Positions 17,329 through 28,769 of a stretch of DNA of 43,958 bases are shown here, piece after piece; the first letter of the stretch is position 1; every line of letters begins with the position of its first letter. The translations under genes were made by a program, and so were the position numbers. Where the stretch lies: NCBI RefSeq assembly GCF_014138625.1, contig NZ_JACJHY010000042.1:1-43958 (forward strand). Direction: 5' to 3'. The notes below the pieces were generated by a model. The model was given only the letters and a program-made list of their open reading frames with translations. It was not told the origin of the DNA and ran no database searches. This DNA comes from Aminobacter ciceronei (GTDB lineage Bacteria; Pseudomonadota; Alphaproteobacteria; Rhizobiales; Rhizobiaceae).

Positions 17329-18210
17329 GTGGAAACGTCGCAATTGCCGCTGAACGCGCTGCGAGCCTTCGAGGCTTCGGCGCGCCATTGCAGCTTCACC
17401 CGGGCCGGCATGGAGCTGTTCGTGTCGCAGACCGCAGTCAGCCATCACGTGAAGTCGCTCGAGGACCTGCTCGGGGTGAAACTGTTCCGTCGGCTGCCGA
17501 GGGGACTGGCGCTGACCGACGAGGGCGCGGCCCTGGCGCCTGTGCTGACAGACGCCTTCCGGCGCGTCACCGCGACGATGAGCCGGTTCGAGGAGGGGCA
17601 CTTCCACGAAGTGGTGACTGTCGGCGTGGTCGCGACCTTCGCCGTCGGCTGGCTGATGGAACGACTGCCGGCGTTCCACCAGGCGCACCCCTATCTCGAC
17701 CTCAGGATCATGACCAACAACAACCGTGTCGACCTCGCCGGCGACGGTCTCGACCTGGCGATCCGCTTTGGCGACGGCTCATGGCGTGGAACCGAGGCGA
17801 TGCAGCTGATTGCCTCGCCATTGTCGCCGGTCTGCTCGCCCGTGATGGCGGCGCGGCTGACACAGCCGGCGGACCTCGCGCGCGTCGAACTGTTGCGCTC
17901 CTATCGCGCCGACGAATGGACGCGCTGGTTCGAGGCGGCAGGTGCGCCGCAGCCGGTGTTGCGCGGTATGATGTTCGATTCGTCGCTGGCCCTTGCCGAG
18001 GCTGCTGCCCGCGGCGTCGGCGTAGCCCTGGTGCCGATCAACATGTTCGAGCGCAATCTCGACGACGGCCGCCTCGTCCAGCCGTTCGAGACGACGGTTT
18101 CAACCGGCGACTACTGGCTCACCCGGTTGAAATCCCACCCGGTGACAGCTGGAATGCAGGCCTTCGAGAACTGGTTGCTGCAGCAGTTCGGCGCTCCGGG
18201 CGCAGCCTGA
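17329..18210 (+). CDS. ampR: AmpR-type LysR regulator
   Basis: A 293-residue regulator starting LPLNALRAFEASARHCSFTRAG, the AmpR opening, with helix-turn-helix SQTAVSHHVKSLEDLLG. Residues that in AmpR sense muropeptides are kept: T103 and D135 at exactly those numbers, and S219 and Y262, two off Ser221 and Tyr264 of Citrobacter AmpR. LLRSYRADEW is also an AmpR hallmark. AmpR proteins switch between UDP-MurNAc-pentapeptide and anhydromuropeptides to control a divergent ampC beta-lactamase; here the divergent genes are two PBPs. GTG start. No beta-lactamase lies nearby. Assignment to the AmpR group is firm; the regulon is inferred from position. Confidence 0.85.
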   Translation: METSQLPLNALRAFEASARHCSFTRAGMELFVSQTAVSHHVKSLEDLLGVKLFRRLPRGLALTDEGAALAPVLTDAFRRVTATMSRFEEGHFHEVVTVGVVATFAVGWLMERLPAFHQAHPYLDLRIMTNNNRVDLAGDGLDLAIRFGDGSWRGTEAMQLIASPLSPVCSPVMAARLTQPADLARVELLRSYRADEWTRWFEAAGAPQPVLRGMMFDSSLALAEAAARGVGVALVPINMFERNLDDGRLVQPFETTVSTGDYWLTRLKSHPVTAGMQAFENWLLQQFGAPGAA

Positions 18211-18247: not shown

Positions 18248-18285
18248 AACAAAAAAGCGGCGCAGCGACCCGCCAGGAGCGCCGC
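18248..18285 (-). terminator. intrinsic terminator of the nine-gene operon
   Basis: Reading leftward, GCGGCGC (18285-18279) and GCGCCGC (18263-18257) pair around a 15-base loop and are followed by TTTTTT (18256-18251) and GTT. It lies 18 bp after the stop of the dehydrogenase gene and marks the end of the leftward operon. Confidence 0.8.
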
Positions 18286-18303
18286 GCCTGCGGTGCCCAG
18301 ACC

Positions 18304-19383
18304 TTAAGCTATCGCATATCCGTCACGGCAAAGGCTGTTGAGCTCGGCCAGCGACATGGCGTCGAGGTCGAGCGCGGTCAGCAGGTCGTTCTCGGCAGTA
18401 AAGTCGCGGCCATACATGGCCGAGAAGATGCGCACGCCGGCTTCGTGCAGCTCGGCGGGGTAGCCTGCCAGACGGCCGATCTTGGCGGTCATGACCAGGC
18501 CGAAAGGCACGTCTTCGGTAACATAGCGGCTGTCGGCAGTGGTCGGGCCCTGGCCGCCATTGCCGGCCTCGTGCATCTCCTGGTTCATCTCAGAGATCGA
18601 GCTCATCGGCACGTGGAAAGACAGGTGGAAGTGCTGGAAGATGTTGCGCACTTCGAGGCCGAGCTTGGTGGCAATGGCGATGCGTTCCTCGTCGAGCTGC
18701 TCGAGCAGGCGGCCGACATTCGGCGTCACGTTCTGGCCCTGGCTCCAGGTTTCACCGCGCTCCATGCGCGTCATGTTGCCGAGCGCGATGCCCATGTGGT
18801 TCTGCGGGTTGAGGTTGGACAGCGCGATCGCCATCAGGCTGCCGCGGTCGACGAAGCGGTCGCCGAACAGCGTCTGGCAGACGGCAAGGCCGTCGGCGCT
18901 GCGCGATGCCGGAACGGTGGCGAGATCGACCTTCTTGCGCACGGTGTTGACGTTGACCAGCGTCGGGCTGAGCTGGCGACCGGATACGACAGTCGTGCCC
19001 CAGCCTACAACAGGCGCGACGACACCGCGCGCAGCCAGCAGGCGCGACAGATAAAGCGCGCCGAAGGATGCGTGCGAGCTGATGATGACGGTCTGGTCGG
19101 CCCTGACGTAAGGCGCGATGGCGTCGAGAACGACCTTGTGGCCATAGGCCGGCAGCGCGATCACGATCGCTTCGGCGCCGGCGACGAGCGCTTCGGCGCT
19201 CGGAGCAGCAGCCGGATGGAAGGTGCCTTCGACGGCGCCCTGGGCAACCAGAGCTTCGCCCTTGGCCAGCGCCTTGGTGCGCTCGCCCGACGGCGACCAC
19301 AGCGTTGCCTTGTGGCCCTGCTGTTCCAGAAACACCGCCGTGCCAAAGGCGATCGAACCCGCGCCGACAATACCTACCTTCAT
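18304..19383 (-). CDS. NAD(P)-dependent octopine/nopaline dehydrogenase family protein
   Basis: A 359-residue oxidoreductase with an N-terminal Rossmann motif (VGIVGAGSIAFGTAVFLEQQGH) and the C-terminal helical domain of the opine dehydrogenase family. These enzymes join or, in reverse, cleave an amino acid and a keto acid through a secondary amine. In an import operon it is more likely degradative. I start at the ATG at 19383 (MKVGIVGAG), 9 bases after AAGGGA; ATGs at 19392 and 19413 are closer to or before the ribosome binding site. Last gene of the nine-gene unit, followed by a terminator. Confidence 0.85.
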   Translation of the reverse strand: MKVGIVGAGSIAFGTAVFLEQQGHKATLWSPSGERTKALAKGEALVAQGAVEGTFHPAAAPSAEALVAGAEAIVIALPAYGHKVVLDAIAPYVRADQTVIISSHASFGALYLSRLLAARGVVAPVVGWGTTVVSGRQLSPTLVNVNTVRKKVDLATVPASRSADGLAVCQTLFGDRFVDRGSLMAIALSNLNPQNHMGIALGNMTRMERGETWSQGQNVTPNVGRLLEQLDEERIAIATKLGLEVRNIFQHFHLSFHVPMSSISEMNQEMHEAGNGGQGPTTADSRYVTEDVPFGLVMTAKIGRLAGYPAELHEAGVRIFSAMYGRDFTAENDLLTALDLDAMSLAELNSLCRDGYAIA

Positions 19384-19453
19384 TTTCAACATTCCCTTTT
19401 GGATCAAATTCATTTCAGCCCCGGCGCTCCCATTGCGGGCGCACCGGGGTCGT

Positions 19454-20068
19454 TCATTTCGGGCGAATCAACGCCCGGGTCGTGCTGCTGCCGACCTCCC
19501 CCGATGCCACCACCAGGAAAGCCCGTGCACCGGCCGGGCCAACACTGGTCAGCGAGTGTGCGACGTCGGCCGCATAGCGCGCCGTCTCGCCGGCGCGGAC
19601 GATCATCTCGTTGCCGGCGCTGCGCACCACGATCTCGCCTTCGGTGCAGTGCAGATGCTCGATCGTGCCTGTGCCGTGGGGATCGCTGATCAGCTTGCCC
19701 TTGAGTTCGAAGCTCAACAGATACCATTCGATCAGCGGCACCATGCCGGCCGGCGACAGGATCTGCAGCGTGCAGCTGCCGTCGGCGCTGCGGATGGTCG
19801 GCGTCAAATTCTCCGGCTGCAGGTCGATGCGGTCGCCACGCTCCTCGCTGGCGCCGCTGATCAGGCTGTTGAGGTCGATGTTGAGCGCGCGGGTGAGATG
19901 CCACAGCGTGCCATAGGTCGGGTTGGCGTTGCCGCGCTCGATCTCCGACAGCATCGAGCGCGAGACGCCCGATCTGGTCGCGAGGTCGGCAAGCGTCAGG
20001 TTCTGCTGCTTGCGATATGCCTGCAGGCGCGGCCCGATTTCCGGCGGATTGACCGAATGTATGTTCAT
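19454..20068 (-). CDS. XRE-family regulator with cupin domain
   Basis: A 204-residue protein: XRE helix-turn-helix at about residues 10-66 (NLTLADLATRSGVSRSMLSEIE) and a C-terminal cupin at about 115-190 (LHCTEGEIVVRSAG). This architecture includes PuuR, the putrescine-utilisation repressor of E. coli, so small-molecule control of amine catabolism is a fair expectation. The ATG at 20068 has GGAG eight bases upstream; a longer frame to 20098 adds 10 residues. It lies inside the operon it probably controls; the operator candidate is at 27210-27231. Confidence 0.85.
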   Translation of the reverse strand: MNIHSVNPPEIGPRLQAYRKQQNLTLADLATRSGVSRSMLSEIERGNANPTYGTLWHLTRALNIDLNSLISGASEERGDRIDLQPENLTPTIRSADGSCTLQILSPAGMVPLIEWYLLSFELKGKLISDPHGTGTIEHLHCTEGEIVVRSAGNEMIVRAGETARYAADVAHSLTSVGPAGARAFLVVASGEVGSSTTRALIRPK

Positions 20069-20098
20069 TCCGATTCTCCATTCCGACGCCACGGGCAA

Positions 20099-20674
20099 CT
20101 ATTCGGCGAGCGGTTCTCCAAGCGTGTGCATCAGCCGGTTGGCCCAGCCGAACAGCGACGACGACAGGATCAGGTCGAGGATCTCGTCCTTGCCGAGACC
20201 GGCGTCGACAAGCGCCTGCATGTCGGACGCATCGGCGTCCGAGGGGCATTTCGACAGCTTGACCGAAAAGTCGAGGATCGCCTTCAGCCGCGGCGAAATT
20301 ACCGCTTCGACACCGTCGGCGAAGATCGCGGCAATGACGGTCTCGTCCTTGGCCAGCTGGTTGTAGCGGCTGGCATGCACCGCCGCACAGTAGATGCAGC
20401 GGTTGACGATCGACGCGCCGACGGCGCCGATCTCGCGCTCGGCGCGCGACAGGCCGCCCTTGTTGTACATCACCCCGTTGAACAGCGGCGAGCGGTGAGT
20501 CAGCGTCTCGACGTCATGGGCCAGCACCAGCACATAGTCCGACACCTTGGTGTTGGACGGCGTGATCTTCAGCGCCTCGAGCTGTGCCGGAGTGGCATCC
20601 GCGAGATCGAGCGGCTTGACGTATGGCTTCCACTCGGGGACCGCGGTGGTGAATTCGTGAACGACCTTGCTCAT
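20099..20674 (-). CDS. carboxymuconolactone-decarboxylase/AhpD-like protein
   Basis: A 191-residue helical protein of the CMD/AhpD superfamily with the active-site motif CIYCAAVH (CxxC...H), seen near residue 97. Such proteins reduce peroxides through a cysteine pair or decarboxylate lactones. It overlaps the upstream CMD gene by 4 bp (ATGA) and is 30 bp before the XRE-cupin gene. The pairing of two different CMD-fold proteins recalls families named after Agrobacterium vitis Avi_7169/Avi_7170; this is from memory. Confidence 0.8.
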   Translation of the reverse strand: MSKVVHEFTTAVPEWKPYVKPLDLADATPAQLEALKITPSNTKVSDYVLVLAHDVETLTHRSPLFNGVMYNKGGLSRAEREIGAVGASIVNRCIYCAAVHASRYNQLAKDETVIAAIFADGVEAVISPRLKAILDFSVKLSKCPSDADASDMQALVDAGLGKDEILDLILSSSLFGWANRLMHTLGEPLAE

Positions 20675-21171
20675 GCCAGTCCCCGCATCAGCCGCAGCCC
20701 GGCGGCAACCCTGATCTGATAGCTGACGAAAGCGACGAGCTCGGACAGGCGCACGATGTCGGCGTCGGTTAGCCCGGCTTCCTGCAGCAGTTCGATATCG
20801 CGGCGCGTCGCATCCTTGGGCGCATGTGCCACGAGATCGACATGGCGGATCAGGGCCTTGAGCCTGATGTCGCCGCCGCCGTCGAACCAGATGTCGGCAA
20901 TGCGCGCGGTGTCGCCTGAGGCGCCCGAGCTGTCGAGCAGGGTTTCGAAATGCGCCTCGAAATCGCCGGCGTCGTTGATCTTGGCGATGCGGCAGGCCAG
21001 GGCTGCGCGCTCGGCATGGGTCAGACCGCCGGGTTCAGCGGGCGTCAGCGCCGCATCATGGGTCTGCTGGGTCAGCGCCATGATGTCGGCGCGGCCGGCG
21101 ACGACCGCCGCCAGTTCGCTGCCCGGCGCTATGCCGACGATCGCGGCGATCACGTCTATGGTGTCAGTCAT
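20671..21171 (-). CDS. CMD-domain protein, no obvious cysteine pair
   Basis: A 166-residue protein with the CMD-like helical pattern (LTHAERAALACRIAKIND, then LTDADIVRLSELVAFVSYQIRVAAGLRLM) but without the CxxC motif of its neighbour. It may be a catalytically different or structural partner of the AhpD-like protein. I start at the ATG at 21171 (MTDTIDVI); the open frame further upstream overlaps the monooxygenase gene. It ends by overlapping the next gene by 4 bp, so the two are probably made together. Confidence 0.75.
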   Translation of the reverse strand: MTDTIDVIAAIVGIAPGSELAAVVAGRADIMALTQQTHDAALTPAEPGGLTHAERAALACRIAKINDAGDFEAHFETLLDSSGASGDTARIADIWFDGGGDIRLKALIRHVDLVAHAPKDATRRDIELLQEAGLTDADIVRLSELVAFVSYQIRVAAGLRLMRGLA

Positions 21172-21181
21172 GCCGTTCCTC

Positions 21182-22714
21182 TTATGCCTGCTTGCGGGCG
21201 GCTGCCGGCGCTTCGTCCGGCAAGGGCGATGCCGTCCACTCGTCACCGCGCAGTTCGGGCGTGTCGTAGTCGAGCAGGAGCTGCCAGTACTGGCCGAAAT
21301 TCTCGCTGTAGAGCTTTGCGGCGATCTCGCGCGCCAGCCACGCCGCACCTTCGCTGATGCCCGGTATGTCGCCGCTCATCTTGCCAAGGCTGGCGGCCGC
21401 CCCGGAGTTGAAGCTGTGGATGTTGGCCAGCCACGGTGCCTGTCCCGGCTCGCGTTCGAGAAAGGTGAAGTCGTTGGCAAGATAGGGGTAGTTGCCAAGC
21501 TCGGTGTTTTCCTGGCCTTCAGGTGGCGTGAAGCGGTCCTGCCACAGCAGGATCTTGTCGGCGTAACCGTCGAGCTCCTTGCGCGCCAGCGGATCGACGC
21601 CGAAGCCAGTGCCGAGGATCAGGAAGTCGCAGCGGACCGCCTTGCCCTGCGAGGTCGAGATGACGATCTCGTCGCCGTCGAGCTCGGCCTTCTCGACCGC
21701 CGCATCGAAATGGAACCAGGCATTGGGATGCCGGCTGACACGCATCGTCGAGCCACGCGGCGCTGGCGTCTGGGTGCGCAGCGAATAGTTCATGATCTGC
21801 CAGCGCCGGGCATCGCCGAGCTGCGGGAAGGCAGCGGTGAAGCCGAACGAGCCGATGCCCATCAGCTTGTTGATACAGGGCATCTGCTTGCGGCGGATGA
21901 GATGGCGGACTTCCGCCGCTCCTGCCTCCAGCGCCTCGGCGGAATTGTCGACGGCAGATGCGCCGACGCCGACAACGACCACGCGCTTGCCGCGCAGGGC
22001 GGCGAAGTCGATTGCATCGGAGGAATGCGCCCAATAGTTTCGCGGCAAGCCGTCGACAAAACCGGGAATGCTTGGATGGCCCATGCCGTCACGGCCGGTC
22101 GCCATCACCACCTTGCGGGTCAGCACCGATTTTTCCCGAGCGCCCTCGCCCGACAGCGTCAGCCGCATCAATTCGCCTTCCGGCACGATCGTCTTGACCT
22201 CGACGCCGTTCTCGACCGGCAGGTCGAGCACCTTGCGGTACCAACGCAGATACTCCATCCACATCGGCCGGGGGATCTTGTCGAGTTCAGCCCAGGTATC
22301 GTTGCCGAACTGGGCGACATACCATGCACGAAAGGTCAGCGACGCCATGCCATAGGCCGGGCCGGTCAACTGCTTGGGCGAGCGCAGCGTCTCCATCCGG
22401 GCATAAGTCAGCCACGGCCCCTCGAAGCCCGTCGGGCTGCGGTCGAAGATGCGGATGTTCTGGATGCCGGCACCGAAGAGGGCGAAACTCGCGACCAGGC
22501 CGCACATGCCGCCGCCAATGACGACGACGTCATGGACCTTTTCTTCCCCCTCGGCTGATGTCGGCACCACCCAGTTCGACGGCGGGTAGCACAGGCAGGC
22601 CAGCTCGTCGCGAACACGCTGTTCGAGCTCGGCGAGGCCGGCGGCGGCCGCTTGCAACGGCGCTTGTACGTCAAACGCCATAGGTCGCCCCTGGTGTCCG
22701 GTCGAATTCGTCAT
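21182..22714 (-). CDS. FAD/NAD(P)-binding monooxygenase-like protein
   Basis: About 510 residues with an FAD Rossmann motif (VVVIGGGMCGLVASFALFGAG) and a second, NADPH-type motif (VVVVGVGASAVDNSAEALEAG), as in flavin-containing monooxygenases; a LGTGFGVDPLARKEL segment fits the ATG-type motif of the class. It would hydroxylate or oxidise a nitrogen- or sulfur-containing substrate or cleave an amine oxidatively. Start uncertain: I use the ATG at 22714 (MTNSTGHQG), preceded by GGACATGCGAC; an ATG at 22681 (MAFDVQAP) also has an AGGGG site. Eleven bases before the CMD gene. Confidence 0.8.
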   Translation of the reverse strand: MTNSTGHQGRPMAFDVQAPLQAAAAGLAELEQRVRDELACLCYPPSNWVVPTSAEGEEKVHDVVVIGGGMCGLVASFALFGAGIQNIRIFDRSPTGFEGPWLTYARMETLRSPKQLTGPAYGMASLTFRAWYVAQFGNDTWAELDKIPRPMWMEYLRWYRKVLDLPVENGVEVKTIVPEGELMRLTLSGEGAREKSVLTRKVVMATGRDGMGHPSIPGFVDGLPRNYWAHSSDAIDFAALRGKRVVVVGVGASAVDNSAEALEAGAAEVRHLIRRKQMPCINKLMGIGSFGFTAAFPQLGDARRWQIMNYSLRTQTPAPRGSTMRVSRHPNAWFHFDAAVEKAELDGDEIVISTSQGKAVRCDFLILGTGFGVDPLARKELDGYADKILLWQDRFTPPEGQENTELGNYPYLANDFTFLEREPGQAPWLANIHSFNSGAAASLGKMSGDIPGISEGAAWLAREIAAKLYSENFGQYWQLLLDYDTPELRGDEWTASPLPDEAPAAARKQA

Positions 22715-22740
22715 GTCGCATGTCCTGCCCTGCCTGCTGT

Positions 22741-22769
22741 CGGCCCGCACCGGTTCTCGACGCGGGCCG
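22741..22769 (-). other. stem-loop between the ATPase and monooxygenase genes
   Basis: CGGCCCGC at 22741-22748 and GCGGGCCG at 22762-22769 form a perfect 8-bp stem with a 13-base loop. No T-tract follows, so mRNA processing or stabilisation is more likely than termination. Confidence 0.5.
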
Positions 22770-22791
22770 CCCTTGTCGCCTGTTTGTCGTC

Positions 22792-23877
22792 TCAGTTGTG
22801 CGCGTGGCGGTCGGGGATGACCGTCGTCGTCTCTGGCTTCCAGCCGACCCAGATTTCCTCGCCATTGAGCTGGCTGACGTCGGCGGGATGGACCAGCGCA
22901 TTGAGCATGGTCCCGTCGCCGACCTCGACCGAAAGCGAGGTGTGGTTGCCCTTGAACACGCGCTGGCGGATCTTGCCCTTGATGCGGTTGCCACTCTCCG
23001 GCTCGGCGGCCGAGCAGTGGATCGCCTCGGGGCGCAGCACGACATAGAGGTGGTCACCGGCCTTTGGCGTAAGCCCGCCCTGTGCTGCCTTGATGGTGAC
23101 GCCGTTCCAGTTCAGCGCTGCCTGGTCACCTTCGGTGCCGACGACCGTGCTGCGCAAAAGATTGGTCTCGCCGATGAAGTTGGCGACGAACACAGAGCCT
23201 GGACGGCCATAAAGCGTGTTCGGGTCACCCATCTGCTCGATGCGGCCCTTGTTCATGACCACGATCGTGTCGGACATGGTCAGCGCCTCTTCCTGGTCGT
23301 GGGTCACGAACATGAAGGTCTTGCCGGTCTTTTCCTGGATCGACTTGAGCTCGATCTGCATCTGCTGGCGCAGCTTGGCGTCGAGCGCCGACAGCGGCTC
23401 GTCGAGCAGCAGCACCTCCGGATCGGGAGCCAAGGCGCGCATCAGCGCGACGCGCTGGCGCTGGCCGCCCGACAGCTCCGACGGCAACCGCTTGGCATAA
23501 TCCTGCAGTTGGACAAGCTCGAGCAGCTCCGAGACGCGGCGGTGGATGTGCTGGTTGTCAAACCCCTTGAGCTCGAGGCCGAAGGCAATGTTCTTGGCAA
23601 TGCTCATATGCGGAAACAACGCGTAGTCCTGAAACACGATGTTGACGTTGCGCTTGTTGGGCGGCACGCGCGTCACGTCCTTGCCGCCGAGCAGGATGCG
23701 GCCGGAGTTCGGCGTCTCGAAGCCGCCGAGCATGCGCAGCGAAGTCGACTTGCCGCAGCCGGACGGGCCGAGCAGCGTGACGAACTTGCCCGCCTCGATG
23801 CTGAGGTTCAGGTTCTCGACGGCAACATGCTTGCCGTAGCTCTTGGTGACATTGTCGAACTGGACGACGGGTTGCAT
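22792..23877 (-). CDS. polyamine-type ABC importer, ATPase (PotA-like)
   Basis: A 361-residue ATPase with Walker [11 protein letters not shown]-loop IVFQDYALFPH, signature [14 protein letters not shown], Walker B VLLLDEPLSALD, switch FVTHDQEEAL and a C-terminal TOBE region. Best matched to spermidine/putrescine-type transporters (PotA). Its ATG overlaps the stop of the permease gene by one base (TGATG), so translation is coupled. Substrate not determined; opine transporters of Agrobacterium are also of this type. Confidence 0.9.
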   Translation of the reverse strand: MQPVVQFDNVTKSYGKHVAVENLNLSIEAGKFVTLLGPSGCGKSTSLRMLGGFETPNSGRILLGGKDVTRVPPNKRNVNIVFQDYALFPHMSIAKNIAFGLELKGFDNQHIHRRVSELLELVQLQDYAKRLPSELSGGQRQRVALMRALAPDPEVLLLDEPLSALDAKLRQQMQIELKSIQEKTGKTFMFVTHDQEEALTMSDTIVVMNKGRIEQMGDPNTLYGRPGSVFVANFIGETNLLRSTVVGTEGDQAALNWNGVTIKAAQGGLTPKAGDHLYVVLRPEAIHCSAAEPESGNRIKGKIRQRVFKGNHTSLSVEVGDGTMLNALVHPADVSQLNGEEIWVGWKPETTTVIPDRHAHN

Positions 23878-24671
23878 CAGCGGGTCCTCGCGCGGCGGGT
23901 CATGTATTCGGCGTAAAGTCCGACGGCGGCGGTAACCACCAGGACGAGTGTCGCCATTGCGTTGATTTCAGGAGACATGCCGCCCTGCACCTTGGCGAAG
24001 ATCAGCATGGGAAGGGTCGGACGATAGCCGCCCAGGAAGAAGGTGCGCACGAAGTCGTCGATCGACAGAAGCACGCAGAAGATCATGCCGCCGACAAGCG
24101 CCGGCCCGAGATAGGGCAGCGTGACGCGGAAGAAGGCAACGATGCTGTCGGCACCGAGGTCACGCGCGGCATCGACGAGATTGCCCGGCATCGAGCGCAG
24201 GCGGGTCAGCGCCATCACCACCACGAAGGGCACTGCATGCACCGTGTGGCCGAGGATGATGGCCGCGGTTCCCGTCGGCATGTCGATTGTCGAGATGAAG
24301 ATGCGCAGCGAGATGGCCGAGATCATGCCTGGCACGACAGCCGGAAGGCAGGCGAGCGCGAAGATGATGACCTGGCCCTTGATGCCTTCGGCGACGATCA
24401 GCATGGCGATCCAGGTACCGAGCGTGGTTGCGGCGAGCGTCGAGGCGGCGGCGATCATCACCGAGTACAGGCAGGCTTCCAGGAACTGCTTGTCCTGCAT
24501 CACCTTGGCATACCAGTCGAGGGTCCAATCGCCGATCGGGAAGGCGACGAAGTTGGCGTCCTTGAAGCTCATCGCCATCATCAGCGTGAGCGGCAGGAGC
24601 AGGTAAAGCAGGAAGGCCCAGTAGATCGCCGTCAGCGACGTGCGCGGAGCGTCTGCAAACATGTTGCGCAT
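23877..24671 (-). CDS. polyamine-type ABC importer, permease (PotC-like)
   Basis: A 264-residue permease starting MRNMFADAPRTSLTAIYWAF, with six hydrophobic segments and an EAA-type loop (NLVDAARDLGADSIVAFFRVTLP). The ATG at 24671 overlaps the stop of the upstream permease by one base and the gene ends with the same one-base overlap onto the ATPase. PotC-type length and order. Confidence 0.9.
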   Translation of the reverse strand: MRNMFADAPRTSLTAIYWAFLLYLLLPLTLMMAMSFKDANFVAFPIGDWTLDWYAKVMQDKQFLEACLYSVMIAAASTLAATTLGTWIAMLIVAEGIKGQVIIFALACLPAVVPGMISAISLRIFISTIDMPTGTAAIILGHTVHAVPFVVVMALTRLRSMPGNLVDAARDLGADSIVAFFRVTLPYLGPALVGGMIFCVLLSIDDFVRTFFLGGYRPTLPMLIFAKVQGGMSPEINAMATLVLVVTAAVGLYAEYMTRRARTR

Positions 24672-25660
24672 CAGAATGCACTCCTTTTCTTGCCGCCGAC
24701 GAGGCGCATGAAGATGCCTGCGGTGATCAAGGCGGTGACCAGCATGATCAGCGCAAAGGCGGCGCCGACCGGCCACTTGTCGCTGGCGCCATGGAAGAAG
24801 CCGCTGATGGTTTCAGGAAACAGCACGGTGTTGGGTCCGCCGAGCAGCATCGGGGTCGCGAAGACGCCGATGCAGGTCAGGAACACCAGCGAGCAGCCCG
24901 AGACGATGCCGTCCTTGGACAGCGGCAGGATGATCCGGCGGAAGCGGGTGAACGGACCGGCGCCCAGATCGGCAGCCGCATCCAGATATTGTCCCGGGAT
25001 CTTCTCGATCGCCGAATAGAGCGGCAAAAGCATGTAGAGGCAGATCAGGTAGACCAGGCCGAAGCCGAGCGAGAACGAGGTGTAGAGCATCGGGATCGGC
25101 CGGTCGATCAGGCCGATCTCGCGCAAGAGCACGTTGACCGCGCCGCGGTTGGCAAGAAGCATGATCACCGAGAAGGTGCGGATCAACTCACCGGCCCAGA
25201 ACGGCACCAGCAGCAACAGCAGCGCCTTGGAACGGCCCTCCGGCTTGACGACCTTGGCGACGTAGTAGGCCACCGGGTAGACCACAACCAGCGTCACCGC
25301 CGTCGCTGCCGTGGCGAAGATGAAGCTCTTGATCAGCGGCGTGAAGTAGAGCGATTCCTTGAAGAAGATCGCGTAGTTGTCCAGGGTGAAGTGCGATTCC
25401 ACACCCGGCAGCACCGGGTAGTGGGACATCAGGCTGATCTTCAGCATCTGATAGATCGGCCCGACATGCAGCATGATCAGCCAGACCAGCGGCACCCCGG
25501 CCAGAAGGATGATCCGGCCGATCCGGGACTCGACAGCGGCCCCCAGCGTATGCCGGTAGAGCGCGGAATTGACCACCTTGGCGATGCCGGTCGAATATTT
25601 GGGCACCGGCGCGTCGCCGCGCCCTGCCGCATAGCCGGCTGTCGTGTTGCTACTCACCAT
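24671..25660 (-). CDS. polyamine-type ABC importer, permease (PotB-like)
   Basis: About 329 residues with a long cytoplasmic N-terminal tail of about 50 residues, then membrane helices (IILLAGVPLVWLIMLHVGPI), and an EAA loop (QYLDAAADLGAGPFTRFRRIILP). Start at the ATG at 25660 (MVSSNTTAG); the TTG at 25687 is less likely. It follows the binding-protein gene after a 244-bp spacer that carries a 49-nt palindrome. Confidence 0.88.
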   Translation of the reverse strand: MVSSNTTAGYAAGRGDAPVPKYSTGIAKVVNSALYRHTLGAAVESRIGRIILLAGVPLVWLIMLHVGPIYQMLKISLMSHYPVLPGVESHFTLDNYAIFFKESLYFTPLIKSFIFATAATAVTLVVVYPVAYYVAKVVKPEGRSKALLLLLVPFWAGELIRTFSVIMLLANRGAVNVLLREIGLIDRPIPMLYTSFSLGFGLVYLICLYMLLPLYSAIEKIPGQYLDAAADLGAGPFTRFRRIILPLSKDGIVSGCSLVFLTCIGVFATPMLLGGPNTVLFPETISGFFHGASDKWPVGAAFALIMLVTALITAGIFMRLVGGKKRSAF

Positions 25661-25734
25661 CAAACAATCTCGGTTGGCGCAGCCCAACTTGTACCGCCAG
25701 GCATTGCCGGCAGGTCAGTCATCGCGCGTTGTGG

Positions 25735-25767
25735 GACTACAGCGCCTCGCTCAGAACGCTGTAACTC
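25735..25767. repeat. partial palindrome, rhizobial repeat module
   Basis: ACAGCG at 25739-25744 and CGCTGT at 25757-25762 are arms of a short imperfect palindrome directly next to the 49-nt element at 25777. The combination looks like the mosaic palindromic repeats found between rhizobial genes. Confidence 0.4.
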
Positions 25768-25776
25768 TCTGAACCG

Positions 25777-25825
25777 GTGCATGAGCCCACCCGAAAACCG
25801 TGCCCGATTTTCGAGGGTCATGCAC
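25777..25825. repeat. 49-nt palindromic intergenic element (RIME-like), copy 1
   Basis: Bounded by GTGCATG and CATGCAC, with inner arms CCGAAAA and TTTTCGAG. It has the same length and plan as the element at 32373-32421. It lies between the binding-protein and permease genes and could attenuate read-through or protect the upstream mRNA. Confidence 0.7.
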
Positions 25826-25904
25826 ATGACAGGCCGGCAGCCTGTCCCGGAGATCGTCGCAGCGCTCCGGGACAGGCGATGGGCCGTGCGAGGCTTTCGC
25901 CTCG

Positions 25905-27014
25905 TCAGGCCGCTTTGACCTCAGCGGTCGCCCGGTCGATCATCTCGTTCTTCATGTCGCGATTGACCGACGAGAAGAAGACGATGCGCTCAAGCTCTTC
26001 CTGGGGCAGCGTCGAGGCGAGCTTTTCGCGGTCGTTGAGCAGGTCGGCGACGCCGTTGATCGTCGAGCTGTAGCCCGACTGGCGGGTCATTGCGGCCCCC
26101 ACCTCCGGGCTTGCCAGCACGGCATCGAGCAGCTTGTAGGCGTTCTCGGCGTTGGGCGCGTTGTTGACGACGTTGAGCGTATAGCAGAAGCCGAACGTGC
26201 CTTCCTTCGGCACCGACAGCTTGATCGGATGACCGTCCATGATCAGCTTGGCAGCCGGACCCGACCAGGAATGGCCGAGATAAATGTCCTCGTTGATGAA
26301 CATCTGCTGCACTTCCGAGCCGGCGTCATAGTACTTGCGCACCATGTCCTTGTGCTTGATGAGGAAGTCGCGCGCTTCGTTGGTCGCCTTCTGCGCCACG
26401 TCGGCCTTGTCGACATAGCTGACGAAGTCGCCGTCATGGCCGAGATACTGCATGACGATGGTCATGAAATCGCTGACGATATAGGAGGTCTGCCCCTTGT
26501 ACTGCGGGTCGAACATGATCTCCCAGCTCGGCGCTTCCTTCACATAGTCGACATTGCGGGCGAGCCCCTCATAGCCGGCGAGGATCGGCAGGCCCCAGAG
26601 ATTGTCGTCGACGCGCGCCCAGGCAGCGTTCTGGTAGGCCGGGTTGAGGTTCTTCCAGTTCGGAATCTTGCCGGTGTCGAGCGGCTGCAGCAGCTTCGAG
26701 GCGATGAACTGCGAATAACGATGGCCGGCGACGGTGACGATGTCGGTCGAGGGATTTGCGCCCTCGGCGGTGAGCAGATTGTATTGCTTGCCCTGGTCGT
26801 CGGTCAGCCGGATGTTGACCTGAATTCCACTGTCCTTCTGGAACTTGTCGAGGAATTCCTGCGGCAGGAATTTGTCGTAGGTGGTGATGTTCAACACGCC
26901 GTTCGCAGCCCAGCCGGGGGTCGGGCGGATCACGGCGGGCATGGCAAGGACGGCGGCGCCACCACCAAGCATCTTCAGCGCGGTACGGCGGTTCGGTACC
27001 AGAATATTGTTCAT
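25905..27014 (-). CDS. polyamine-type ABC importer, binding protein (PotD-like), Tat signal
   Basis: A 369-residue periplasmic solute-binding protein of the spermidine/putrescine type. A twin-arginine motif (NRRTALKM) precedes a hydrophobic stretch (GGGAAVLAMPAVI), so export by Tat is likely, with cleavage near GWAA. Mature part starts VLNITTYDKFLPQEF. I start at the ATG at 27014 (MNNILVPNRR), 6 bases after GGGGA. First gene of the nine-gene operon. Confidence 0.88.
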   Translation of the reverse strand: MNNILVPNRRTALKMLGGGAAVLAMPAVIRPTPGWAANGVLNITTYDKFLPQEFLDKFQKDSGIQVNIRLTDDQGKQYNLLTAEGANPSTDIVTVAGHRYSQFIASKLLQPLDTGKIPNWKNLNPAYQNAAWARVDDNLWGLPILAGYEGLARNVDYVKEAPSWEIMFDPQYKGQTSYIVSDFMTIVMQYLGHDGDFVSYVDKADVAQKATNEARDFLIKHKDMVRKYYDAGSEVQQMFINEDIYLGHSWSGPAAKLIMDGHPIKLSVPKEGTFGFCYTLNVVNNAPNAENAYKLLDAVLASPEVGAAMTRQSGYSSTINGVADLLNDREKLASTLPQEELERIVFFSSVNRDMKNEMIDRATAEVKAA

Positions 27015-27209
27015 TATGTTCCCCATTTGGATAATATCGATCACGCGCACGGCTTTCGCCGCGCAATAAAACCCGCCCTCACGCAGTCGAAAGGACTGCG
27101 CGACCGACAAGCCGGCGAAGAGGTATTCTCAGCGGTGTTTTACAGACTACTAATGAACTGGCGCAAAGTCCTCCACCAAGCCAGTCCTGAATTCCGACAT
27201 TCCGTCCGC

Positions 27210-27255
27210 AAATTCCACTAAACTGGAATTTTTCTCTAAACCGGACAAATGTCAA
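27210..27255 (-). promoter_or_regulatory. promoter and palindromic operator of the nine-gene operon
   Basis: Reading leftward, TTGACA (27255-27250), a 17-bp spacer and AAAATT (27232-27227) make a good sigma-70 promoter. A perfect 8-bp inverted repeat, AAATTCCA at 27210-27217 and TGGAATTT at 27224-27231, covers the -10 and start region, the position of a repressor site. The transcript would have a leader of about 200 nt before the ATG at 27014. The rest of the 27015-27432 gap, over 400 bp, shows no gene and no other clear signal. Confidence 0.65.
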
Positions 27256-27432: not shown

Positions 27433-28218
27433 TCAGGCCTCCGTCGAGACGCTGAGCTCGACCCTGTCGGCGACAAAGCGGGTTTCAGCGTACTGGACCG
27501 ACACGCCTGCGGTGTCGACGTTGATCGCCCTGGCGACGAGTACGATGGCGCCGGCGGACAGCTTGAGATCGGTCAGGTCGGCGGCATCGGCATGGCGCGC
27601 CGAAACCAGTGTCGACTTGCGGAAATAGTCCTCGATTCCAAAATGCTGGAAAGCGAGCGTGATCGACGCGGTCTCGGCGTAGACCCGTGCGAAGTCGGGG
27701 AAGCGCTCGGCGTCGAACCAGCTCGTCGCGCGCGACACCGGCCGGCCGTCGGCCTCGCTCAGCGTTTCCAGCCGGAGCACCGGCGCATCCGGCGCAAGCC
27801 CCAGGGCTTCGGCGACACGGCTGAGGGCAGGCTCTATGGCGTCGGCCAGGAGGATGCTGCGGCGCTCGCGTGTCTGCTCGCGCAGCCCTGTGGAAAAGCG
27901 CGTCCGCGCCGAAATTGGGTAGGAGAGCTTCTGGCGGCTCTCGACGAAAGTGCCGCGCCCCTGCTCGGCGCGCAACACACCTTCCTGGACAAGCGCGGCA
28001 ATGGCGCTGCGCAAGGTATGGCGATTGACGCCGAAGCGTTCGGACAGGATCATTTCGGGCGGCAGCTTGCCATCGGCGCCCAGAGTTCCAGCCGATATCG
28101 CCTGCCTGATCTGGTCGGCGATCTGGCGCCACAGCGCCACCCCGCTCTTGCGTGTCACCGCCTGCTCTCGTCCCTGCCCGCTCAAATCCACCGTCCCAGT
28201 TTGCGACTTGTCATGCAT
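27433..28218 (-). CDS. phnF: GntR/HutC-family regulator PhnF
   Basis: A 261-residue regulator: GntR winged helix at about residues 27-95 (PPEMILSERFGVNRHTLRSAIAALVQEG) and a C-terminal UTRA ligand domain. PhnF proteins regulate phosphonate genes. It is divergent from phnG, as usual. Starts at ATG 28218; a PHO-type box overlaps this start, and a palindrome between the two genes is a fitting PhnF operator. Confidence 0.92.
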   Translation of the reverse strand: MHDKSQTGTVDLSGQGREQAVTRKSGVALWRQIADQIRQAISAGTLGADGKLPPEMILSERFGVNRHTLRSAIAALVQEGVLRAEQGRGTFVESRQKLSYPISARTRFSTGLREQTRERRSILLADAIEPALSRVAEALGLAPDAPVLRLETLSEADGRPVSRATSWFDAERFPDFARVYAETASITLAFQHFGIEDYFRKSTLVSARHADAADLTDLKLSAGAIVLVARAINVDTAGVSVQYAETRFVADRVELSVSTEA

Positions 28219-28225
28219 CCGTCAC
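28208..28225 (+). promoter_or_regulatory. PHO box between phnF and phnG
   Basis: TTGTCAT at 28208-28214, GCAT, then CCGTCAC at 28219-28225, in 7-4-7 PhoB spacing; about 11-12 of 14 consensus positions match. It spans the phnF start codon (28216-28218) and lies 80 bp before phnG, so PhoB could activate phnG and hinder phnF. Confidence 0.6.
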
Positions 28226-28259
28226 GGAGCCTCGCTACAAGCCCATTGTAAGTTGTTCG

Positions 28260-28274
28260 ATTGTATAGAACAAT
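28260..28274. promoter_or_regulatory. PhnF operator-like palindrome
   Basis: ATTGT-ATAGA-ACAAT is a perfect inverted repeat. Its TGTATAGA core resembles GntR/HutC operators such as the mycobacterial PhnF site. It lies 31 bp before the phnG start. Confidence 0.6.
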
Positions 28275-28304
28275 AGACAAATGTGAAGTGGAGCAGCGAA
28301 AGCG

Positions 28305-28769
28305 ATGGACCGACGGCAGGAAAGAGAACTGGAGACGGCGCGCAAGACGGCCATGGCGGCGCTTTCGCTAGCACCAGTGGACGAGTTGAAGCGGCTGTGC
28401 GCGGCGGCAGGCATTTCTGGCGAAGCCGAGATGCTGCGCGGACCGGAGACCGGCCTCGTGTCGGTTCGTGGCCGTATCGGCGGCGGCGGCGCGCCGTTCA
28501 ACTTCGGCGAGGCGACGGTGACCCGCGCCACGGTGCGTTTGCCGAGCGGCGAGATCGGCCATTCCTATGCGCTCGGCCGCGACAAGGACAAGGCCCGCCT
28601 TTCGGCCATCACTGATGCCCTTTGGCAGAATGCCGACCGCCGCGCCGACATCGAAGAGAAGGTCATCGCACCGTTGCGTGCCGCACAAGCCGAAGCCGAT
28701 GCGACCAGTCGTGCCGAGACGGCAGCGACCAAGGTCGACTTTTTCACCATGGTGCGTGGAGAGGACTGA
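28305..28769 (+). CDS. phnG: C-P lyase complex subunit PhnG
   Basis: A 154-residue subunit of the PhnGHIJ core, which makes and then cleaves the ribose-linked phosphonate. Motif-rich middle (GLVSVRGRIGGGGAPFNFGEATVTR, shown in part: FNFGEATVTR; SYALGRDKDKA) is typical. Starts at ATG 28305 with GGAG upstream. Its stop overlaps the phnH start (TGATG). First gene of phnGHIJKL. Confidence 0.95.
   Translation: MDRRQERELETARKTAMAALSLAPVDELKRLCAAAGISGEAEMLRGPETGLVSVRGRIGGGGAPFNFGEATVTRATVRLPSGEIGHSYALGRDKDKARLSAITDALWQNADRRADIEEKVIAPLRAAQAEADATSRAETAATKVDFFTMVRGED

Follow-up and report, generated by a model that had tools for sequence, protein, structure and literature searches.

The locus and its genes

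Nine leftward genes of the soil bacterium Aminobacter ciceronei occupy positions 18248–27255 of the window, the term used here for the whole stretch of DNA that was analysed (43,958 nucleotides, contig NZ_JACJHY010000042.1, denoted C42 among the 96 contigs of the genome). The closest named related loci belong to Aminobacter. The genes lie between a promoter with operator (27210–27255) and a terminator-like hairpin (18248–18285), and encode an importer of the Pot type, a flavin monooxygenase (FMO), two AhpD-like proteins (CMD1 and CMD2), an XRE-cupin regulator and an enzyme of the opine-dehydrogenase family. The operon is real, conserved and, in the literature covered, without an assigned function; very probably, the nine genes constitute a dedicated catabolic operon. 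The best supported reading, which is unproven, is that its substrate derives from cysteine. An earlier note made from the letters alone, the sequence-only reading, had claimed nine leftward genes in this interval, and all are present at the place and on the strand that it gave. Gene families were assigned with Pfam and NCBIfam profile searches, which, together with the scans and fold tests named below, yield the following features:

27210–27255, minus strand: promoter (TTGACA at 27255–27250) and palindromic operator (27231–27210), from a scan and an alignment of 16 upstream regions
25905–27014, minus strand: Tat-type solute-binding protein with a PotD/PotF-like fold and a pocket that is not polyamine-like (SBP_bac_8)
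25661–25904, minus strand: 244-bp spacer with an inverted repeat, between the binding-protein and PotB genes (fold test)
24671–25660, minus strand: PotB-type permease (BPD_transp_1)
23877–24671, minus strand: PotC-type permease (BPD_transp_1)
22792–23877, minus strand: PotA-type ATPase (TIGR01187, 386.3 bits, cut-off 355.6)
21182–22681 (22714 in the frame allowed by the earlier note), minus strand: FAD/NAD(P)H flavin monooxygenase, FMO (Pyr_redox_3, Lys_Orn_oxgnase)
20671–21171, minus strand: CMD1, AhpD-like, without a conserved Cys (TIGR04029-like)
20099–20674, minus strand: CMD2, AhpD-like with Glu, CxxC and His (TIGR01926)
19454–20068, minus strand: XRE-cupin regulator (XRE helix-turn-helix, weak cupin match)
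18304–19383, minus strand: opine-dehydrogenase-family enzyme (Octopine_DH)
18248–18285, minus strand: terminator-like hairpin and T run (scan, fold energy)

The second ATG, at 22681, rather than that at 22714, is probably the translation start of the FMO, since 6 of 19 translated relatives have a stop codon between the two positions. Counted from this start, the gap between the PotA and FMO genes is about 110 bp; the 244-bp spacer had been described correctly, and the limit of 80 bp put on the remaining gaps is exceeded by this one.

Conservation of the gene set

Searching species genomes with the FMO returned 32 related loci. The same nine-gene order is found in 14 of them (L001–L014), and nine more (L017–L021, L023–L025 and L030) have the order FMO–CMD1–CMD2–dehydrogenase–binding protein–PotB–PotC–PotA. 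The other nine comprise two loci cut by contig ends (L016, L031), three with a different importer (L015, L022, L032) and four more distant ones (L026–L029, 47–51% identical). The plasmid sample, 18 opened among 334 plasmid records with an FMO match, contains versions from Agrobacterium, Shinella, Sinorhizobium and Nitratireductor with the same enzymes and a Pot-type importer. Plasmids of plant-associated bacteria that carry the cluster include S. meliloti pSymB and Agrobacterium fabrum pAt; on pSymB of S. meliloti ml47 (L046:7502–8776), the dehydrogenase homologue appears as two separate matches in an unannotated stretch. Of 397 Rhizobiales genomes, 13 carry the FMO at an identity of at least 55% and 11 the dehydrogenase at an identity of at least 60%; every one of the 11 also belongs to the 13, and 10 of them have both genes in one cluster (Fisher p = 9e-20, kinship ignored). 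The sequence-only reading had made co-conservation across genomes the measure of its proposal of one conserved uptake-and-oxidation pathway. The proposal is upheld by the loci in which order (14/32) or enzymes and importer (9/32) recur, by the genome co-occurrence (11/11) and by the joint expression changes described for the homologous S. meliloti group in the available part of PMC3596328.

The tree built from the FMO has 92 rows. One clade comprises 65 of them, of which 60 have the CMD pair at most 8.5 kb from the FMO; none of the 27 rows outside this clade does. The L094 genome is counted as lacking CMD, although a CMD pair lies about 11 kb from its FMO (L121). The tree draws on 20 of the 32 non-window places of one scan and on 20 of the 21 FMO places of the 397-genome scan, the 21st being retrieved separately; it is not a random sample, because plasmid records and scan places were sampled in part. 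The Pot binding protein and the dehydrogenase were compared over 89 rows, with thresholds of 45% and 50% identity, respectively, so that the dehydrogenase of L095, at 45%, is scored as absent; the comparison excludes L016, L031 and the first FMO of L099, each with its context cut by an end of the stretch. Both genes are present in 41 rows, the dehydrogenase alone in 1, the Pot binding protein alone in 0 and neither in 47. The Fisher and binomial values ignore kinship, and the independent evidence on the tree is small.

In relatives, the FMO–CMD core is found with polar amino-acid ABC importers, TRAP transporters, dipeptide-type ABC importers with an M24 peptidase, or TctC/TctA. The M24 peptidase is encoded in two dipeptide-type loci, and an M19 dipeptidase lies beside the FMO in one TRAP locus. 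With importer types varying, the dehydrogenase going with the Pot importer and the peptidases with dipeptide or TRAP loci, the pattern is read to mean that related substrates have their amino group unlocked in different ways.

Dehydrogenase and FMO share an operon in 42 of the 89 rows, an arrangement that would also suit a different division of labour, in which the FMO oxidatively decarboxylates the 2-oxo acid freed by the dehydrogenase, as plant YUCCA enzymes carry out oxidative decarboxylation, the CMD proteins scavenge leaked peroxide, and the amino acid part is ordinary. Such a scheme is highly improbable: 16 of 58 CMD-bearing rows have the FMO–CMD core but no dehydrogenase, and there the core keeps its cysteine-degrading neighbours.

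Beside the cluster, genes for glycine C-acetyltransferase and threonine dehydrogenase were observed in L004, L006, L007, L010, L011, L013, L057, L025 and L030, in both gene orders, joined by a MATE exporter in L007, L010, L057 and L025. Kbl, considered with Tdh and MATE as pathway genes, lies near the FMO in 9 of the 92 tree rows; there is none in the window.

The enzymes

The FMO matches Pyr_redox_3 and also Lys_Orn_oxgnase (45.7 bits, over residues 145–277 only); no NCBIfam N-hydroxylase model is among the matches listed. Its profile matches to the structures 4usr, 7a76, 4c5o, 4a9w and 5xhu are weak and partial. More distant homologues occur in other settings. On a Ti plasmid (L047:4131–29404), a 35% identical homologue lies among FMN-dependent monooxygenases, members of the acyl-CoA dehydrogenase family and peroxidase-related proteins, and near an aliphatic sulfonate transporter. 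On the Rhizobium plasmids L050, L051 and L052, homologues of 35–39% identity stand beside genes of the questin oxidase family and an amidohydrolase, with no CMD match; these belong to a different pathway.

CMD1 has no Pfam match and reaches 97.3 bits with TIGR04029 (cut-off 100.75), while CMD2 exceeds the cut-off of TIGR01926 (181.9 against 81.8 bits). Proteins of the AhpD type carry the redox motif E-x11-C-x2-C-x3-H. In CMD2, E81, C93, C96 and H100 have this spacing and are invariant in 18 of 18 sequences, whereas CMD1, which nevertheless gives profile matches to AhpD-like structures, has neither a conserved Cys nor the motif. Because the Glu, CxxC and His residues are invariant in one protein and a conserved Cys is missing from the other, the pair seems to combine a redox-active with an inactive subunit rather than to be a decarboxylase. 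The matches listed for the two CMD proteins (E up to 0.01) include no model for PcaC (4-carboxymuconolactone decarboxylase).

For the dehydrogenase, the earlier assignment to the opine-dehydrogenase family is borne out by the Octopine_DH domain and by H196, R286 and D291, which align with H202, R292 and D297 of 1bg6, presumably the active-site residues of that enzyme. NAD(P)-dependent oxidation of an N-carboxyalkyl amino acid, as characterises the family, is a putative activity of the enzyme.

The binding protein and the polyamine question

The Pot subunit types and the broad ATPase model favour ordinary polyamine uptake followed by polyamine oxidation, as does the annotation of the S. meliloti group SMb20278–SMb20285, which is treated as putative polyamine uptake in the available part of PMC3596328; a polyamine had also been among the substrates put forward by the sequence-only reading. 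In PotF, polyamines are contacted proximally by S38, D39 and D247 and by an aromatic box of W37, W244 and F276, and distally by S85, S87, A182, E185, D278 and L348; among 250 homologues, W37 is 100% conserved and D247, D278, E185, D39 and R254 are conserved to at least 96% (PMC8666671, excerpt). These positions were compared in the binding protein of the window and 17 chosen relatives. In all 18, W37 is replaced by Tyr, D247 by Pro, D278 by Tyr, S87 by His, F88 by Arg, R91 by Gln and E185 by Asp. The position of D39 holds Lys in 10 of the 18 and Asp, Asn or Gln in 8, and W244 and F276 are retained. A point on the other side is that PotD, too, departs from PotF at two of these positions (Ser for D247, Glu for D39), and losses there would not by themselves exclude polyamines. 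W37 and D278 are common to PotF and PotD and are lost in the compared proteins. Moreover, the binding protein and the permeases fall below every cut-off among the Pot equivalog models listed, and just the ATPase passes that of the broad subfamily TIGR01187.

A polyamine was rejected as the substrate on two grounds: the loss of W37, D247 and D278 throughout the comparison, and the replacement of the importer in relatives by types not known for polyamines. It is very likely that the operon does not act on a polyamine, and ordinary polyamine uptake coupled to polyamine oxidation is extremely improbable. An aromatic box combined with an added His and Arg and with lost acids would suit a carboxylate-bearing ligand better than a dication; the ligand of the Pot-type importer is probably a carboxylate-bearing compound derived from cysteine.

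A probable link to cysteine and sulfur

A recurrent neighbourhood of cysteine-degrading enzymes, which had been missing from the sequence-only reading, points to a sulfur amino acid. A SufS/CsdA cysteine-desulfurase-like pyridoxal phosphate (PLP) enzyme, usually with an Lrp regulator, is encoded in the vicinity of 16 of 58 loci with CMD and of none of 31 lacking CMD (p = 8e-4, kinship ignored). Among the 397 genomes, it is found in 9 of the 21 with an FMO as against 47 of the 376 without (p = 9e-4), and 4 of the 9 genomes having both encode it no more than 10 kb from the FMO. In R. etli, the desulfurase-like gene precedes one for a Blh-like sulfur dioxygenase and one for a protein of the TauE family. 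A Cds1-like L-cysteine desulfhydrase, a PLP enzyme unrelated to the former, is found at most 10 kb from the FMO in 4 of the 5 genomes having both. In 2 of these 4 genomes, it is accompanied by RidA, which hydrolyses the enamine made by such lyases, at the end of the row CMD1–CMD2–RidA–Cds1, and in 1 of the 4 an M19 dipeptidase is found beside the FMO. This exchange of non-homologous cysteine-degrading enzymes next to the same core is the strongest indication of cysteine being delivered by the core. One locus (L099:203–10714) has an FMO gene on each side of the row TRAP–CMD1–CMD2–RidA–Cds1; the two are 40% and 47% identical to the FMO gene of the window. In the genome of the window itself, contig C11 carries an Lrp regulator divergent from genes for a desulfurase-like PLP enzyme and a Blh-like sulfur dioxygenase (L101:7219–10161).

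Several observations weigh against a cysteine-derived substrate. No sulfur-specific gene is present in the cluster of the window, and the genome gives no Cds1 match at E 1e-80. The co-occurrence of Cds1 and FMO does not exceed chance at the genome level (5 of 21 against 44 of 376, p = 0.16), and the Cds1-like proteins match NF052478 with 542–571 bits, below the cut-off of 600. The Blh-like proteins reach 534.7 and 561.4 against a cut-off of 625, the first 139 positions of the model lying outside the match. Many genomes have the desulfurase-like enzyme with Lrp but lack the FMO; of the 397, 56 carry the enzyme, 9 of them together with the FMO. As to the FMO, one of its Pfam matches represents lysine/ornithine N-hydroxylases, its sequence does not distinguish S- from N- or C-oxygenation, and no assayed enzyme of its family was found in the literature. 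The association of the Pot importer with the dehydrogenase comes down to just 4 independent changes on the tree, of which 3.5 agree in direction, and with so few it does not reach significance. Finally, the S. meliloti group responds to nitrogen regulators, as far as the available part of PMC3596328 goes.

The regulation by nitrogen and the missing sulfur genes would fit the catabolism of a sulfur-free opine or other secondary amine, close to the view of the sequence-only reading minus the polyamine. An opine would then enter through the importer, dehydrogenase and N-hydroxylating FMO would open C–N bonds, and the CMD pair would remove peroxide or a reactive nitrogen product; the conserved opine-dehydrogenase active site, the Lys_Orn_oxgnase match and the tie between Pot importer and dehydrogenase are all consistent with this scheme. 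It fails to account for the two unrelated cysteine-degrading enzymes that recur beside the FMO–CMD core in relatives, and for a core that also occurs without the dehydrogenase and with amino-acid or dipeptide importers. A sulfur-free substrate is rather doubtful, and the balance tips slightly towards a sulfur-amino-acid derivative as the substrate of the operon.

A proposed pathway

The operon may represent a branch of a proteobacterial FMO–CMD pathway that releases cysteine from modified cysteines without the N-acetylation of the Bacillus type, a proposal given an even chance here. First, the Pot-type importer would bring in a secondary amine that bears a carboxylate, namely an S-substituted cysteine with an opine-like N-carboxyalkyl group. 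That the substrate has this N-carboxyalkylated form is a tentative part of the scheme, with a little less than an even chance. The opine dehydrogenase would then strip the N-substituent with NAD(P)+, freeing the amine. In a third step, the FMO would oxygenate the sulfur or the neighbouring carbon, so that the C–S bond breaks and a product at the level of a sulfenic acid is formed, which the CMD1–CMD2 pair would reduce to the thiol by way of the CxxC–His redox site found in CMD2 only. The cysteine would be used or degraded elsewhere, in this genome possibly by the Lrp/desulfurase-like/Blh-like module of contig C11. A more far-reaching version, which appears unlikely, holds that this is a new acetylation-free form of cysteine recovery, in which a FAD-type FMO and a split AhpD-like reductase break the C–S bond of S-substituted cysteines, and in the branch seen in the window the opine dehydrogenase takes the place that a peptidase has in relatives and the acetyl group in Bacillus; it would unlock imported N-carboxyalkyl cysteine opines or, more boldly, reversibly cap the amine during oxidation.

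If true, the proposal would define a sulfur- and nitrogen-scavenging route, provide both the CMD1/CMD2 pair and a monooxygenase family of unassigned role with a function, and suggest cysteine conjugates or cysteine opines as nutrients for plant-associated bacteria. In the plasmid-borne versions, the importer is regarded as one for polyamines or as a generic system.

Regulatory elements and flanking genes

The promoter and operator that had been claimed at 27210–27255 are present. The promoter consists of TTGACA at 27255 and a second hexamer that is weak, together giving 10 of 12 matches, and 8 promoter-like sites were found in the region as against 1.9 expected. The exact palindrome (27210–27231) has a single copy in the genome; with up to 3 mismatches it occurs at 7 places (the exact one and six with 2–3 mismatches), compared with 3 for a reversed control. 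In the alignment of 16 upstream regions (the window and 15 relatives), CTTGAC and the operator core A..TCC..TTTA..GGA are invariant; outside the window, a perfect palindrome is kept only in L002, L003 and L014. L044, from Aminobacter sp. MSH1 pUSP1, was left out of this alignment, its binding protein being truncated; the shortened gene copy adjoins an IS3-family transposase gene (L044:6742–8826).

The palindrome is probably the binding site of the XRE-cupin protein, a regulator found near the FMO in just 19 of the 92 tree rows. Its XRE helix-turn-helix and weak cupin match agree with the earlier assignment; the curated PuuR model gives 32.7 bits, well short of its cut-off of 211. In the window, the spacer between the binding-protein and PotB genes has a better fold than 60 mononucleotide shuffles (z = -4.7); in 14 relatives the outcome is uneven (z from -5.3 to +0.2). 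A hairpin at 18275–18258 is followed by a T run, as had been noted; terminator-like sites in the region are not above chance (4 found, 8.6 expected), and the fold energy is ordinary (z = -1.07).

Two neighbouring regulator genes were considered as parts of the system and rejected: LysR (17329–18210) is present in 3, and PhnF (27433–28218) in 4, of 33 clustered sequences (32 loci and the window). Window positions 27433–28769, immediately upstream of the operon, hold PhnF on the minus strand and PhnG of the C–P lyase system on the plus strand; among the 32 related loci, PhnF adjoins the operon only in three from Aminobacter.

Comparison with known systems

No function assigned to this gene set was found in the open-licence PMC literature covered, where the S. 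meliloti locus tags lead only to PMC3596328 and PMC3484140. In the available part of the former, SMb20278–SMb20285 comprise a LysR regulator, a Pot-like importer, a pyridine nucleotide-disulphide oxidoreductase, a hypothetical protein and a CMD protein; in a glnBglnK mutant they are repressed when nitrogen is limiting, and a glnD mutant shows raised expression. There the group is regarded as putative polyamine uptake, and no test of a substrate is described. The excerpt of PMC3484140 states that, of five such proteins including SMb20284, none had been studied. Judged by gene order and description, this group appears to be the pSymB cluster of L041 and L046. It resembles the operon of the window in that Pot-type importer, FMO, CMD1 and CMD2 form one co-regulated group, and differs from it in having LysR where the window has an XRE-cupin regulator. 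In both pSymB loci, the dehydrogenase lies upstream on the opposite strand.

Individual components also have known counterparts. The importer shares subunit architecture and binding-protein homology with PotFGHI and PotABCD, but its ligand pocket differs. The dehydrogenase is homologous over nearly its whole length, with conserved His, Arg and Asp, to N-(1-D-carboxyethyl)-L-norvaline dehydrogenase (1bg6), at 127 bits only. Like CMD1 and CMD2, the proteins of the TIGR04029/TIGR04030 pair (Avi_7170/Avi_7169) are adjacent and AhpD-like, although both members of the window pair score below the curated cut-offs (97.3 against 100.75 for CMD1 with TIGR04029, 152.1 against 233.15 for CMD2 with TIGR04030).

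A functional parallel is the salvage of S-substituted cysteines in B. subtilis. There, the scm (yxe) and ytn/Cmo systems free cysteine by acetylation, monooxygenase attack and deacetylation, acetylation being crucial in all cases described in the accessible part of PMC12757645, and the product of CmoJ is a sulfenic acid that is subsequently reduced (PMC10863075, excerpt). The proposed likeness lies in a flavin monooxygenase that would free cysteine from an S-substituted form. While the B. subtilis pathways employ FMN-dependent monooxygenases together with N-acetylation and deacetylation, the window encodes a FAD-type FMO, an opine dehydrogenase and an AhpD-like pair. No N-acetyltransferase or N-acetylcysteine deacetylase is among its nine genes, the flanks of relatives not having been searched for them as a set. 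The operon of the window would work like the B. subtilis salvage pathway but would not be a member of it.

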